Shown here in pieces: positions 14,710-51,233 of a stretch of 51,233 nucleotides of DNA; position 1 is the first letter of the stretch, and every line of letters starts with the position of its first letter. This DNA comes from Bacteroidales bacterium. GTDB lineage: Bacteria; Bacteroidota; Bacteroidia; Bacteroidales; UBA932. The position numbers were made by a program, and so were the translations under genes. Below the pieces are notes generated by a model. The model did no database searches. It was not told the origin of the DNA and saw only the letters and a program-made list of their open reading frames with translations. Location: NCBI GenBank assembly GCA_017544005.1, contig JAFYEZ010000003.1, positions 1 through 51,233 of the forward strand, in the 5' to 3' direction.

Positions 14710-14780
14710 TGAGGTATGGTGTAATGGCAGCACAAGAGATTCTGGTCCTCTTAGTGGCGGTTCGAATCCGTCTACCTCAA
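14710..14780 (+). tRNA. tRNA-Gln (anticodon CTG)
   Basis: A cloverleaf can be drawn by hand: acceptor TGAGGTA/TACCTCA, D stem GTGT/GCAC, anticodon stem AGAGA/CCTCT with loop TTCTGGT (anticodon CTG at 14742-14744), T arm GGCGG-TTCGAAT-CCGTC. One A-C mismatch closes the anticodon stem (positions 31-39). CCA is not encoded. Reads CAG codons. The second tRNA follows 10 nt later. Confidence 0.9.
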
Positions 14781-14790
14781 CAAAAGTGAG

Positions 14791-14864
14791 GGCGGGGTAG
14801 CTCAGTCGGTTAGAGCGCATGATTCATAATCATGAGGTCGCCAGTTCAATCCTGGCCCCCGCTA
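14791..14864 (+). tRNA. tRNA-Met (anticodon CAT)
   Basis: A full cloverleaf: acceptor GGCGGGG/CCCCGCT (first pair G-U), D arm GCTC-AGTCGGTTA-GAGC, anticodon stem CATGA/TCATG with loop TTCATAA (anticodon CAT at 14825-14827), T arm GCCAG-TTCAATC-CTGGC. It lacks the three G-C pairs typical of initiator tRNA, so it is an elongator Met or an Ile tRNA read with lysidine; these cannot be separated by eye. CCA is not encoded. Confidence 0.88.
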
Positions 14865-47045: not shown

Positions 47046-50000
47046 TTAGTTGAACAGGTAACGCAGACCGATCTGGAAGTTCCAGCACTGGGTGTAAGCC
47101 GTCTTGCCGGGATACTCGTAGGTCGTGGTCAGGTAGTTGCCGTCCTTCTTGTTCATCGAGAACTGCGGAACGCCGGAAGCGTCCTTGCCGTCATACTTCA
47201 GGATACGGCAGTTGTTGGAAGCAGAGTTGGATTTCCAGATGCCCCACTTGCTGTTGAAGAGGTTGCCGACATTCATCAGGTCGAACAGAATCTGGAAGGT
47301 GTGCTTCTGGCCTGCTGCCTTGAAGGAGATGTCCTGTGCGAGGCGGAAGTCGAAGCGGTTGCTCCAGGGAGCGCGTGCTGCGTAAGCCTCAGCATACTGG
47401 CCCTTGTGGCTCTTGAGGTACTTGTCCTGATCGACAAATGCCCAGAAAGCAGCGGCGTCAGCGGGGTTGGTGAAGGAAATCTCGGTGTCATCCTTCGGGA
47501 TGTACATCAGGTCGTTGTTGATGCCGTCACCGTTCATATCGTTGGAGTAGCAGAAGCTGTTGCTGTAGGGAGCGTAGCCCGTGTAGAACACGTTCAGGTG
47601 GGTTCCGGTGTAAGGAATCGTGTAGCTGATGCTTGCGATAGCCTTGTGAGGAATCACATACTGCGAACGCTGTGCGGTACCGAAGTTCGGGCCGTCGACG
47701 GTGATCATACCCTGCCAGGTGGAGAGAGGGTCGGAACCCGGAAGACCGGAAACCTCTTTGGACTCGGTGATGGTGTAAGCCGCCATGATGTCGAGGTTCT
47801 TGACCGGCGTGGTGTTGATGGTGATGTTGCCCGTGTAACCGTAGCCCTTGTTGGTGTTGACCAGATACGGAGCGTTCTTGCCCGCATTGATGGCACCCTT
47901 GTTAGCCGGGTAGATGAGACGGTTGTCAGCACCGGAGAAGTGGCCCCAGGTGGAGGTATCCGGATCGATGTTCACGTTGTAAACGTTGACGCCGTTAATG
48001 GTCTTGTGGTACATAGCCTCGAGGGTGACGGTGAAGGGGAAGTCAACCGGGAGCTGGTAGTCCACCGCGAGGGAAGTCTTCCAATCCTGCGGCATCTTGA
48101 ACTTCGGATCCACACCCGACATCGTGTTGCCGGCAACGTGCTTGTCGTCGGTCAGAGAGGTCTGGAGGCCGAGTTTCTCGATAGCTTCCTGCGCGGAGGT
48201 AATCATACCGCCGAAGGTGCCGGTCTTGGAGAACTGGTCGAGCTGTGCGTGGTTGATGGCGGTCAGTTCACCGGAGGTCCAGGTACTCTTGTACTGGACG
48301 GAGTTCTGCACCATACCTGCGTTGGTCGGCATGTTGGTGAAGTACACGAGCGGGAGACGGCCCTGGAAGATACCGGTACCACCGCGAACCTTCAGGCTCT
48401 TGTCGCCGAAGACATCATAGACGAAACCGAGGCGCGGGTTGACCTGAATCTTGGTGGTCGGCCACTTGCCGGTGTCGATCTTGACGGCCGTTCCGTCGGG
48501 AGCCTTGAAGTCGTATGCGTAGATGGCCTTGTTGGTAGCGATGTCGGACTCATCGAAGAGGATGGTGTCCAGACGCACGCCGCCGGTCAGTTTGAGGTTG
48601 TCGTTCACAGCCCATTCGTCCTGCAGGTAAGCACCGATCTGGTGGAAGGTAACCTGTGCGTTCGGGTTGAGGTTGCCGTCCCAGCCATAGGTGATGGCGA
48701 AGGATTCCGGCGTGCCGTCGAGCACCTGCTCGATGGTCGACTCGGTGGTCCATGCATAACGATAATAGAGCGCGCCGTTACGCATGTAAGCGTTGTTGGC
48801 GAACTGATACTCGTAGTTGACACCTGCGGTGATCTTGTGTGCACCGAGGGTGTAGATCAGGTCGTCCTTAATGGTGAGGACATTGTTGTGCACACCGTTG
48901 TTCCAGGTGAAGAGCTCATAACCGAGCGACATGTAAGGCTGCCATTCTGCGCCGTCCTTCTTGATGATATCAACATGAGGGAACGGGGAAGACTTGGAAC
49001 CGCGGACGTCATCGATCTTGGTGTAGGTGACGAGCAGCTGCTCGGAGAGGTTGTCCGAGAGGCGGCTGTTGTAGTCGAGGGAGAGGGTCTGCACCTTGTT
49101 GTCCTGCGAGTACATGTTGTTGGCGAAAGCCATGGACTCGTCACCGACACGGTAGGTACCGTTCAGACGGTAACCGGTATCGGAAGAGTTGCCGTTCGGG
49201 CCGTTCCAAGCGGTATTCTTGGTGTAGTTGTAACGGAGGCTGATGCGGTGGTCACGGTTGACGTTCCAGTCGAGGCGGGCAAGGATCTTCATATTGGACT
49301 CGTCGCCGGGGAAGTCGGTATAGGAACCCGTGTCATAATTGTACTTGCTCTTCATGTAGGCCTGAACTGCGGCGAGGTCATCTGCCGTACAACGGGAAAC
49401 GCCGGTATTGTTGTAAGCCTCACCGCCTTTGTTTGCGCGGTACTTGATCACCTGGCCAGGATTGCTCTCATGCTCGAAGTTTGCGAAGAAGAAGAGCTTG
49501 TCCTTGATGATCGGGCCGCCGATGGTAGCACCGAGTACGCGGTGCGATTCAGCCTTGCGGTCGCCGCAGTCGACACCGGCCACGGTGTTGCCACGGAAAG
49601 CCTGGTTGCGGTAGTAGCCGTACACGGAACCCTTGAAGGTGTTGGTACCGGACTTGGTGATGGCGTTGATGCCACCGCCGATGAAGTTGGTCTGGCGAAC
49701 ATCGTAGGGAGCGATCACGACCTGGATTTCCTCGAGTGCATCCACGGAGATCGGGGAACCGCCGCCGGGGAGTTTGTCGGAAAGACCGAAGTTGTTGTTG
49801 AAGTTGGAACCGTCCACGGTGAAGTTGGTGGAACGGCCGTCACCGCCGGCGAAGCTCATGCCGTTTGCATACGGGGAGACGCGGGCCAGGTCGGAGATGC
49901 TTCGGTTGACCGTAGGCATCTTCTGCATGTCGGCGCTGTTGATGCTGGTGGAAGCACCCGTCTTCTCCGTAGCGAACTTGGAAGCCGAAGCAACAACGAC

Positions 50001-50357
50001 CACCTCATCCAGTGCCGTTGCGGCAGCCTTCAGGGTGGCGTTCTGGACATACACCTCACCGAGGTTCAGCGTAACGCCCTGATAGACGACGGTTTCGCAA
50101 CCCATCATCTGAATCTTGACATCATACGGTCCGCCCGGGCGCATACCCTGGATCGCATAACGGCCCTCGCTGTTGGACACAGCATAATACTGCGTGCCGG
50201 AGGGGGTGTGGGTCGCGATGATGGCGGCTCCGACGACGGAACCCTGCTCATCCACGATTTTACCGCTCATCGAAGAGGTGGTCACCTGTGCGGACATCGC
50301 AAAGGAGACGAACAGTCCGAGAGCAGCCAAAGCAAAAAGCTTAAAGGTTTTTTTCAT
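47046..50357 (-). CDS. Oar-like TonB-dependent receptor
   Basis: An 1103-residue outer-membrane receptor of the Oar-like group: signal peptide (KKTFKLFALAALGLFVSFAMSAQ), CarboxypepD_reg-like domain (about 25-110), TonB-box-like DEVVVVAS (about 118), a plug with NFTVDGSNFNNNFGLSDKLP and SVDALEEIQVVIAPYDVRQT (about 185-235), INAITKSGTNTFKGSVYGYY, and a barrel ending in NFQIGLRYLFN. No SusD neighbour. Oar proteins in other Bacteroidetes and myxobacteria are linked to import or export of larger substrates; substrate unknown here. The ATG at 50357 is supported by the signal peptide. Monocistronic, between a -7 box and a strong terminator. Confidence 0.92.
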   Translation of the reverse strand: MKKTFKLFALAALGLFVSFAMSAQVTTSSMSGKIVDEQGSVVGAAIIATHTPSGTQYYAVSNSEGRYAIQGMRPGGPYDVKIQMMGCETVVYQGVTLNLGEVYVQNATLKAAATALDEVVVVASASKFATEKTGASTSINSADMQKMPTVNRSISDLARVSPYANGMSFAGGDGRSTNFTVDGSNFNNNFGLSDKLPGGGSPISVDALEEIQVVIAPYDVRQTNFIGGGINAITKSGTNTFKGSVYGYYRNQAFRGNTVAGVDCGDRKAESHRVLGATIGGPIIKDKLFFFANFEHESNPGQVIKYRANKGGEAYNNTGVSRCTADDLAAVQAYMKSKYNYDTGSYTDFPGDESNMKILARLDWNVNRDHRISLRYNYTKNTAWNGPNGNSSDTGYRLNGTYRVGDESMAFANNMYSQDNKVQTLSLDYNSRLSDNLSEQLLVTYTKIDDVRGSKSSPFPHVDIIKKDGAEWQPYMSLGYELFTWNNGVHNNVLTIKDDLIYTLGAHKITAGVNYEYQFANNAYMRNGALYYRYAWTTESTIEQVLDGTPESFAITYGWDGNLNPNAQVTFHQIGAYLQDEWAVNDNLKLTGGVRLDTILFDESDIATNKAIYAYDFKAPDGTAVKIDTGKWPTTKIQVNPRLGFVYDVFGDKSLKVRGGTGIFQGRLPLVYFTNMPTNAGMVQNSVQYKSTWTSGELTAINHAQLDQFSKTGTFGGMITSAQEAIEKLGLQTSLTDDKHVAGNTMSGVDPKFKMPQDWKTSLAVDYQLPVDFPFTVTLEAMYHKTINGVNVYNVNIDPDTSTWGHFSGADNRLIYPANKGAINAGKNAPYLVNTNKGYGYTGNITINTTPVKNLDIMAAYTITESKEVSGLPGSDPLSTWQGMITVDGPNFGTAQRSQYVIPHKAIASISYTIPYTGTHLNVFYTGYAPYSNSFCYSNDMNGDGINNDLMYIPKDDTEISFTNPADAAAFWAFVDQDKYLKSHKGQYAEAYAARAPWSNRFDFRLAQDISFKAAGQKHTFQILFDLMNVGNLFNSKWGIWKSNSASNNCRILKYDGKDASGVPQFSMNKKDGNYLTTTYEYPGKTAYTQCWNFQIGLRYLFN

Positions 50358-50407
50358 AAAAAAGTTATTGTTAAAAAGGTTGGTTTGGATTCTTCCTTTA
50401 CAAACTG

Positions 50408-50415
50408 CAAATATA
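50408..50415 (-). promoter_or_regulatory. Promoter -7 element of the Oar-like receptor
   Basis: The complement reads TATATTTG (TAnnTTTG), 50 nt upstream of the start codon. A partial -33 TTG lies 22 nt further upstream (complement of 50438-50440). Confidence 0.55.
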
Positions 50416-50475
50416 ATCATTCCAATGGATTCCCATGCAAGAAAAAAACGAAGTTTTTAGTACCCCAAAAAACTT

Positions 50476-50506
50476 TTTGCGAATCCGGAAAAAGGCCGTA
50501 CCTTTG
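50476..50506 (+). promoter_or_regulatory. metK promoter
   Basis: TTTG (50476-50479), 19 nt, TACCTTTG (50499-50506): a perfect Bacteroidetes consensus. Transcription would begin about 5-8 nt later, directly at the 5' side of the SAM-II aptamer. Confidence 0.85.
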
Positions 50507-50510
50507 CCGG

Positions 50511-50560
50511 ACACAGTGGATGGATTTGACTGCTTGCAACCACTCTAAAAAAGGCTAAAA
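50511..50560 (+). promoter_or_regulatory. SAM-II riboswitch aptamer
   Basis: The sequence follows the SAM-II consensus: P1 AGTGG/CCACT (50515-50519 with 50540-50544), conserved loop ATTTGAC and CTTGCAACCAC, an A-rich linker CTAAAAAA, and the 3' AGGCTAAAA. The pseudoknot helix P2 can form between GCTT (50532-50535) and AGGC (50552-50555). SAM-II senses S-adenosylmethionine; placement ahead of metK, whose product makes SAM, is functionally coherent. Known for alphaproteobacteria and Bacteroidetes. Confidence 0.85.
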
Positions 50561-50596
50561 TGAACCTCTTTTCGGCTACGGCCGGCTGTCAAATCC
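50522..50596 (+). other. Antiterminator pairing between SAM-II core and terminator arm
   Basis: GGATTTGAC (50522-50530, inside the aptamer loop) is the exact reverse complement of GTCAAATCC (50588-50596), which includes seven bases of the terminator's 8-base 5' arm. Past one U-U mismatch, GC at 50532-50533 can pair with GC at 50585-50586. This helix excludes both the folded aptamer and the terminator, so it can serve as the SAM-free state. The complementarity is seen directly; the switch is inferred. Confidence 0.7.
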
Positions 50597-50622
50597 TCGC
50601 ACTGCGCAGGATTTGTTTTTTT
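50590..50622 (+). terminator. Intrinsic terminator in the metK leader
   Basis: Stem CAAATCCT/AGGATTTG, extended by CGC/GCG inside (one bulged C, 3-nt loop), followed by seven T residues (50616-50622). It ends only 8 nt before the metK ATG, so termination would fully block metK. Confidence 0.88.
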
Positions 50623-50630
50623 ATATAGCT

Positions 50631-51233
50631 ATGTACCTATTTACTTCTGAATCCGTTTCCGAAGGCCATCCCGACAAGGTGGCCGACCAGATTTCCGACG
50701 CCGTGCTGGACGCCTGCCTGCGCAAGGACGAGAACGCTCATGTCGCCTGCGAAACCTTTGTGACCACCGGTCTGGTGGTCGTCGGCGGCGAGGTCACCAC
50801 CCGCACCTTTGCAGATATCCAGACGATTGCCCGCGAAACCATCCGCCGCATCGGCTATACCCGCAGTGAATACCGTTTCGACGCAGACTCCTGCGCCGTC
50901 ATCTCCGCCATCCAGTCGCAGAGCGGCGACATCGCGATGGGAGTCAACCGCGACGAGGCGGCCGAACAGGGCGCCGGTGACCAGGGAATCATTTTCGGCT
51001 ACGCGACAAACGAGACCGACAATTACATGCCGCTTCCGCTGACCCTCTCGCACCATATTCTGCACGAACTGGCGGCCATCCGCCGGGAGAACCCCTCCCC
51101 GATGCCCTACCTGCGGCCGGATGCCAAGAGCCAGTTCACGATCGAGTACGCCGACGACGGCACGCCGCTGCGCATCCACACCATCGTCCTCTCCACGCAG
51201 CACGACGAGGGCGTCTCCCGCGAGCAGATCGAA
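50631..51233 (+). CDS. metK: S-adenosylmethionine synthetase (cut by window end)
   Basis: The first 201 codons of methionine adenosyltransferase, which makes SAM from methionine and ATP. The N-terminal signature is [25 protein letters not shown] (His and Asp of the active site, about residues 4-28; read as [10 protein letters not shown]). Later blocks are [18 protein letters not shown] and the ATP-binding [16 protein letters not shown] (about 120-135). The family is usually about 400-430 residues, so about half is missing beyond the window edge. Regulated by the SAM-II leader upstream. Confidence 0.97.

Follow-up and report, generated by a model that had tools for sequence, protein, structure and literature searches.

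The metK leader at the right-hand end of a 51,233-nt stretch of Bacteroidales DNA (hereafter the window, meaning the whole stretch that was analysed) raises the question of how a SAM-II aptamer could pass on its ligand state to the gene that follows. Judged from sequence comparison and predicted folds, this leader is probably a SAM-II riboswitch that turns metK off at the level of transcription through an exchange of strands. The underlying reading, an aptamer and a terminator with the antiterminator strand lying within the aptamer, is supported by the sequence features described below.

A long open frame of the TonB-dependent receptor type (our own reading; 47046-50420, minus strand) is divergent from metK, and the metK promoter therefore lies in the intergenic stretch that the two share. 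At its other end the window opens inside a 23S rRNA gene, of which 1-1044 is left, and tRNA genes are found at 14710-14780 and 14791-14864. An earlier sequence-only reading had described a consensus promoter, an aptamer and a terminator ending 8 nt before metK, all of which were located where it had placed them (Table 1). The promoter-like elements are separated by 19 nt, and the resulting TTTG-N19-TACCTTTG arrangement presumably matches the Bacteroidota promoter consensus. By sequence and fold, a hairpin and a T7 tract form an intrinsic terminator between the aptamer and the metK ATG at 50631; its 3' arm GGATTTG (50609-50615) is a direct repeat of the aptamer core. The metK frame is cut short by the contig end after 201 codons, and its TIGR01034 score of 277.5 bits therefore stays under the cut-off of 309.4 set for the whole protein.

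Table 1. Features of the metK leader in the window
Feature	Position	Strand	Basis
Promoter-like -33 element TTTG	50476..50479	+	sequence
-7 promoter element TACCTTTG	50499..50506	+	sequence; TAnCTTTG visible in many genus leaders
SAM-II (long loop) aptamer	50510..50568	+	RF01726, 57.8 bits (cut-off 44)
P1 5' strand AGTGG, partner CCACT 50540-50544; AGTGG also used by the putative antiterminator	50515..50519	+	
Aptamer core GGATTTGAC, 5' strand of the putative antiterminator	50522..50530	+	
P1 3' strand CCACT	50540..50544	+	model match and folding
Arm GTCAAATCCTCGCACTG against the aptamer 5' half; antiterminator partners 50514-50520 and 50522-50530	50588..50604	+	
Intrinsic terminator hairpin, -11.8 kcal/mol	50590..50615	+	predicted fold
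Terminator T7 tract	50616..50622	+	sequence
metK (SAM synthetase), cut by contig end	50631..51233	+	TIGR01034, E 1.6e-82

The Rfam covariance check proposed for SAM-II returned the long-loop model RF01726 above its cut-off, and this is the only match to that model in the window's genome (85.8% complete). The P1 stem is present, and the pseudoknot P2 bases UUGC/GCUAA are retained on reading the sequence. P2b, whose base assignment is our own reading, shows two wobbles plus a mismatch in the window. Three Watson-Crick P2b pairs were found in 0/110 leaders of the window's family (0/33 in its genus, 0/77 in other genera) and in 44/106 leaders from the rest of the order. The family, which is without the SAM-II P2b (CUG with CAG), mostly shows CTGC within the loop and A[CT]GA or ATTAT after GCTAAA. 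The gene context is that of SAM-II, a SAM/methionine gene leader right after promoter-like elements. Model score and gene together make SAM the likely ligand of the window aptamer; given the eroded P2b, its affinity or its ligand may differ.

Aptamer and terminator are connected by complementarity. The core GGATTTGAC (50522-50530) is the exact complement of GTCAAATCC (50588-50596) within the 5' arm of the terminator, so that both strands of the 9-nt match reported earlier are confirmed. The proposed 9-bp antiterminator is present, but the predicted pairing is longer, since terminator-loop CACTG (50600-50604) continues it with CAGTG (50514-50518), and in genus g3 it reaches the 5' tail. In the window, 50514-50520 and 50522-50530 pair with 50588-50598 and 50600-50604, which makes 16 pairs with one single-base bulge per side. 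As the loop bases extend the pairing, the P1 5' strand would also be consumed, together with the aptamer 5' half. Predicted energies and comparative support both point to an antiterminator that takes in aptamer sequence and is mutually exclusive with the state of P1 plus terminator.

Folding of the transcript by length in 3-nt steps, with energies that hold no SAM or pseudoknot term, predicted P1 as formed and the antiterminator at a probability of at most 0.01 up to 50594, and a core-arm pairing probability of 1.00 at transcript end 50597. The check with two states, which had been suggested from the sequence, put the antiterminator at -31.7 kcal/mol and the state that combines P1 with the terminator at -27.9 kcal/mol, again with neither SAM nor pseudoknot counted; ligand binding could tip this balance. 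The unconstrained fold of 50507-50640 was unexceptional (z -1.79; 12/200 shuffles equally good).

From these elements we infer an order of folding that would depend on SAM binding and end in termination in the cell. P1 would fold first in the nascent aptamer. With SAM present, L1 (the GAUUUGA strand) would be locked in the pseudoknot and the GUCAAAUCC arm left free; the terminator hairpin would then close between this arm and the 3' one, ending transcription 8 nt before metK. With SAM absent, the exposed L1 would serve as a toehold on which the arm pairs with the core, terminator-loop CACTG would displace the P1 3' strand, and the aptamer 5' half would end up in an antiterminator of about 16 bp, so that metK is read.

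Further analysis of the window's genus revealed the aptamer in 34/40 genomes, always with metK downstream (34/34); all 34 matches were taken and all are unique. A terminator is present in 18/34, each with a core complement (18/18). The remaining 16 have no terminator and no complement, and no more than 15 nt separate the aptamer from their metK ATG. By dinucleotide shuffling, 0.62 of the 34 leaders would be expected to have a complement of at least 8 nt, compared to the 18 observed. In L047, L048, L050-L058, L060 and L289-L292 the aptamer end abuts the metK start, as in GGCTAAAATTATG. In the metK tree of the genus, calculated without L044 and L289-L292, which are too short, all 12 ATG-type rows fall into a single clade (100/98), and a further branch (starred, 99/96) unites this clade with three terminator-type rows among 17. 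From this topology, the terminator module was most simply lost once: one clade of the window's genus would have shed the whole module, and its metK start now stands beside the aptamer.

The core is held by ligand binding, and little sequence change is therefore expected in it. Where the core does change, the arm frequently changes with it, as in GATTTGAA matched by TTCAAATC (L049), GATTTGAAC by GTTCAAATC (L273) and GATTTGG by CCAAATC (L339). Uncompensated changes occur in L253, L254 and L275, where the core is GATTTGCC and the arm unchanged, and in L059 at position 8; pair -1 is A.C in L034-L036, L038 and L039. A permutation test was restricted to leaders in which a GATTTG core goes together with a single CAAATC. 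The 37 from the Bacteroidales samples gave p values of.0056,.0024 and.0004 for pairs -1, 7 and 8, with position 11, outside the helix, also at.0008; pairs -4 to -2, 9 and 10 were not significant in this set. After de-replication (n=24), pairs 7 and 8 were still significant and pair -1 was not (p.058). Pairs -1 and 8 were significant in a second set of 106 leaders, which was pattern-selected and has positions 1-7 fixed by the pattern. On a relatedness-corrected tree of 103 rows with long, distinct metK (from 205), pair -1 showed 4 same-branch changes against 1.19 expected (p.017) and pair 8 showed 2 against 0.55 (p.085), and there was no same-branch change at pair 7 among the 103 rows; pairs -1, 8 and 7 are broken on 14, 8 and 3 branches. 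The covariation of the 9-bp pairing, named as a check in the sequence-only reading, is thus significant by permutation at pairs 7 and 8, but it becomes modest once relatedness is corrected for and is limited by aptamer conservation.

The strongest comparative sign in these sequences is covariation outside the core, between the terminator loop and the RNA 5' end. Eleven leaders of genus g3, in the same family, are near-identical except mainly at these two places, which vary together (ACAGATT with AATCTGT, ACGAGTT with AACTCGT, ACGAATT with AATTCGT). Each g3 loop on average fits its own 5' end better than those of the others (p.0009, n=11); this set is without the divergent L244 and includes L109 and L112, which come from a pattern scan and were assigned to g3 by likeness. 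A pair-counting alignment of g3 was set aside, as its 5' ends are of unequal length. The same comparison of own and cross pairing gave p.00025 for genus g1 (extension alone p.019) and p.00005 for 35 terminator leaders, and was not significant in the six-leader subgroup L033-L039 (p.16). Against shuffled loops, the arm and terminator loop paired with their own 5' half better than the mean in 26/27 loci (mean z -1.7) and ranked in the best tenth of shuffles in 17/27; the 27-locus and 35-leader sets were hand-picked, and in all of these tests, that of g3 included, the correction for relatedness is incomplete. Loop pairing of the g3 type has one mismatch each in L254, L085 and L275 and is less full in L079 and L080.

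Beyond the genus, the picture is patchier. The upper part of the score-ranked list supplied the leaders from the family's other genera (82 fetched, 81 parsed, 78 unique). Under the same criterion 19/78 have a terminator, and 8/19 of these a core complement; six of the 11 terminators without complement belong to genus g2, which has different terminators. A complement of at least 8 nt occurs in 14/78 (2.4 expected); in 22/78 the ATG begins no more than 15 nt past the aptamer, and 0/22 of these have the complement. Among leaders from other families of the order, again the better-scoring part of the list (110 fetched, 109 parsed, 106 unique), the complement is not enriched (7/106 against 4.6 expected). 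Given this figure and the 8/19 inside the family but outside the genus, an anti-core strand general to Bacteroidales was rejected. L234, L270, L351 and L419 were left unparsed. By eye, the terminator arm CAAGCGGTC or CAAGCGGCC of genus g197 (L255, L256, L262) can pair with another strand of the aptamer, GACTGCTTG or GGCTGCTTG, and one A-U pair is replaced by G-C. In L339 and L321, from other families, a T-run soon follows the core complement, and no separate terminator hairpin was seen.

When named genomes were scanned for the pattern, the anti-core turned up in many Flavobacteriaceae, at no fewer than 119 loci. A first phylum sample (2/28 against 2.7 expected) was dropped, as its matches came mostly from one family and from 26 genera and its long-loop aptamers were partly misparsed (L233); in its stead a single Flavobacteriaceae-type family was sampled with one genome per genus. 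SAM-II is present in 187/199 of these genomes, and 89 leaders from the better-scoring part of the 187 were taken, of which 88 were parsed. A complement of at least 8 nt occurs in 42/88 compared to 1.3 expected, and a terminator-like hairpin in 1/88. The strand GTCAAATC was found in 34/88 leaders, in 29 of them 25-32 nt past the aptamer, and in 0/15 of the sampled leaders with an AATTTG core. The own versus cross test of the extension in this family was not significant (p.23), although 29/33 leaders fell below their shuffle mean. In L206 and several of the L375-L463 leaders with an AATTTG core, the anti-core is replaced by an immediately following sequence complementary to the P2 3' strand, L206 forming the nearly perfect hairpin GCTAAAACAGTAATTCATTACTCTTTTAGC. 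Such complements of at least 7 nt were found in 5/15 AATTTG-core leaders and in 8/88 overall (3.5 expected). In the Flavobacteria-type contigs L093, L094, L096, L128, L175 and L186, SAM-II and anti-core precede an O-acetylhomoserine sulfhydrylase-like gene and not metK.

Those P2 3'-strand complements would suit a switch at the 3' end of the aptamer, in which the P2 3' strand (GGCUAAAA) would change partners, being hidden without SAM in a hairpin of AAAAAGG with CCUCUUUU (50547-50572); the core complement would then be a by-product of terminator origin. The hairpin is indeed predicted, and the terminator arm of a Sinorhizobium metZ-type leader takes GGCCGG, just past the aptamer, as its partner in the folds of 72, 76 and 80 nt. 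We nevertheless consider this unlikely for the window, where the hairpin appears in both predicted end states and therefore cannot alone switch the terminator; the loop/5'-end covariation of g3 and the complement in every terminator of the genus would also stay unexplained. A terminator that acts independently of SAM, giving a low metK level or a short RNA, with a complement that arose when the hairpin copied the core, would suit the direct repeat GGATTTG, and the metA SAM-II of S. meliloti is followed by a terminator for which no SAM response is predicted in the corresponding passages of PMC9373788. Copying, however, explains neither the pairing of the loop with the P1 5' strand and the 5' tail nor the terminator-free complements of the Flavobacteriaceae-type leaders, and we regard this account as quite improbable. 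Marginally less credible still is a SAM-II-like aptamer with a changed ligand, a thought that arises because P2b is eroded throughout the window's family; the Rfam cut-off is still passed, metK follows in every genus leader, and the core and GCTAA are kept.

Strand exchange at the core, as preferred here for the window, may have a wider counterpart. With less assurance than for the window itself, we lean towards regarding the strand against the SAM-II core as a recurrent expression-platform element of Bacteroidota, which would use L1 as toehold and unzip P1. Terminators would incorporate it in the window's genus and in some other genera of its family; in many Flavobacteriaceae-type bacteria it would act without a terminator, at 16-38 nt upstream of metK, and one clade of the genus would have lost it with the module. 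The leader is a small candidate: its sequence is enough to name the toehold, the strand that invades and the end point, and relatives supply natural compensatory variants. Since one clade of the genus has the start-codon-adjacent form, two outputs of one aptamer could be compared.

SAM-II had been taken at the outset as mostly ribosome-blocking. Coupling to a terminator is not exceptional: papers of 2005 and 2007 put it forward, chiefly for proteobacteria and with predictions in alphaproteobacteria, and it was proposed again in 2022. For the S. meliloti metZ leader (SAM_alpha, RF00521), passages of the 2022 paper (PMC9373788) predict that SAM causes termination and report more short RNA and less mRNA at high SAM. 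Sinorhizobium sp. C101 likewise has a terminator after the aptamer and before a gene that we read as metZ-like. At five alphaproteobacterial metY-like loci there was no Rfam match; searched in full, the five records yielded three SAM_alpha copies, all within two records. The proposal that the core itself is the antiterminator strand stands for the window, but its unusualness may not fully hold: an 84-nt fold of the Sinorhizobium metZ-type leader also uses core TTGGCCGG, and core use is therefore not claimed as unique to Bacteroidota. A SAM-II antiterminator of Bacteroidota was not found described in the open literature, as covered by titles, abstract starts and passages, with few subscription papers and no supplements.

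The closest relative by aptamer model is the SAM-II long-loop RNA (RF01726), reported from Bacteroidetes in passages of Weinberg 2010 (PMC2864571), whose model the window matches above cut-off. The literature passages on RF01726 describe it without an expression platform, whereas in the window the antiterminator of a putative terminator switch can be specified, and P2b is eroded in its family. The compact metX SAM-II from the Sargasso Sea belongs to the same aptamer class; according to passages of PMC10907184, L1 and P2 lie open in it as long as SAM is absent, and P1 is stable and formed either way. It acts by direct occlusion of the ribosome site, and in this the 16 ATG-adjacent leaders of the genus look closer to it. 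Like the window, the strand-exchange riboswitches (group 3 in the same passages of PMC10907184) let aptamer sequence alternate with an expression-platform helix; their switching sequence most commonly lies in the first helix, whereas that of the window would comprise the L1 strand together with the P1 5' strand.
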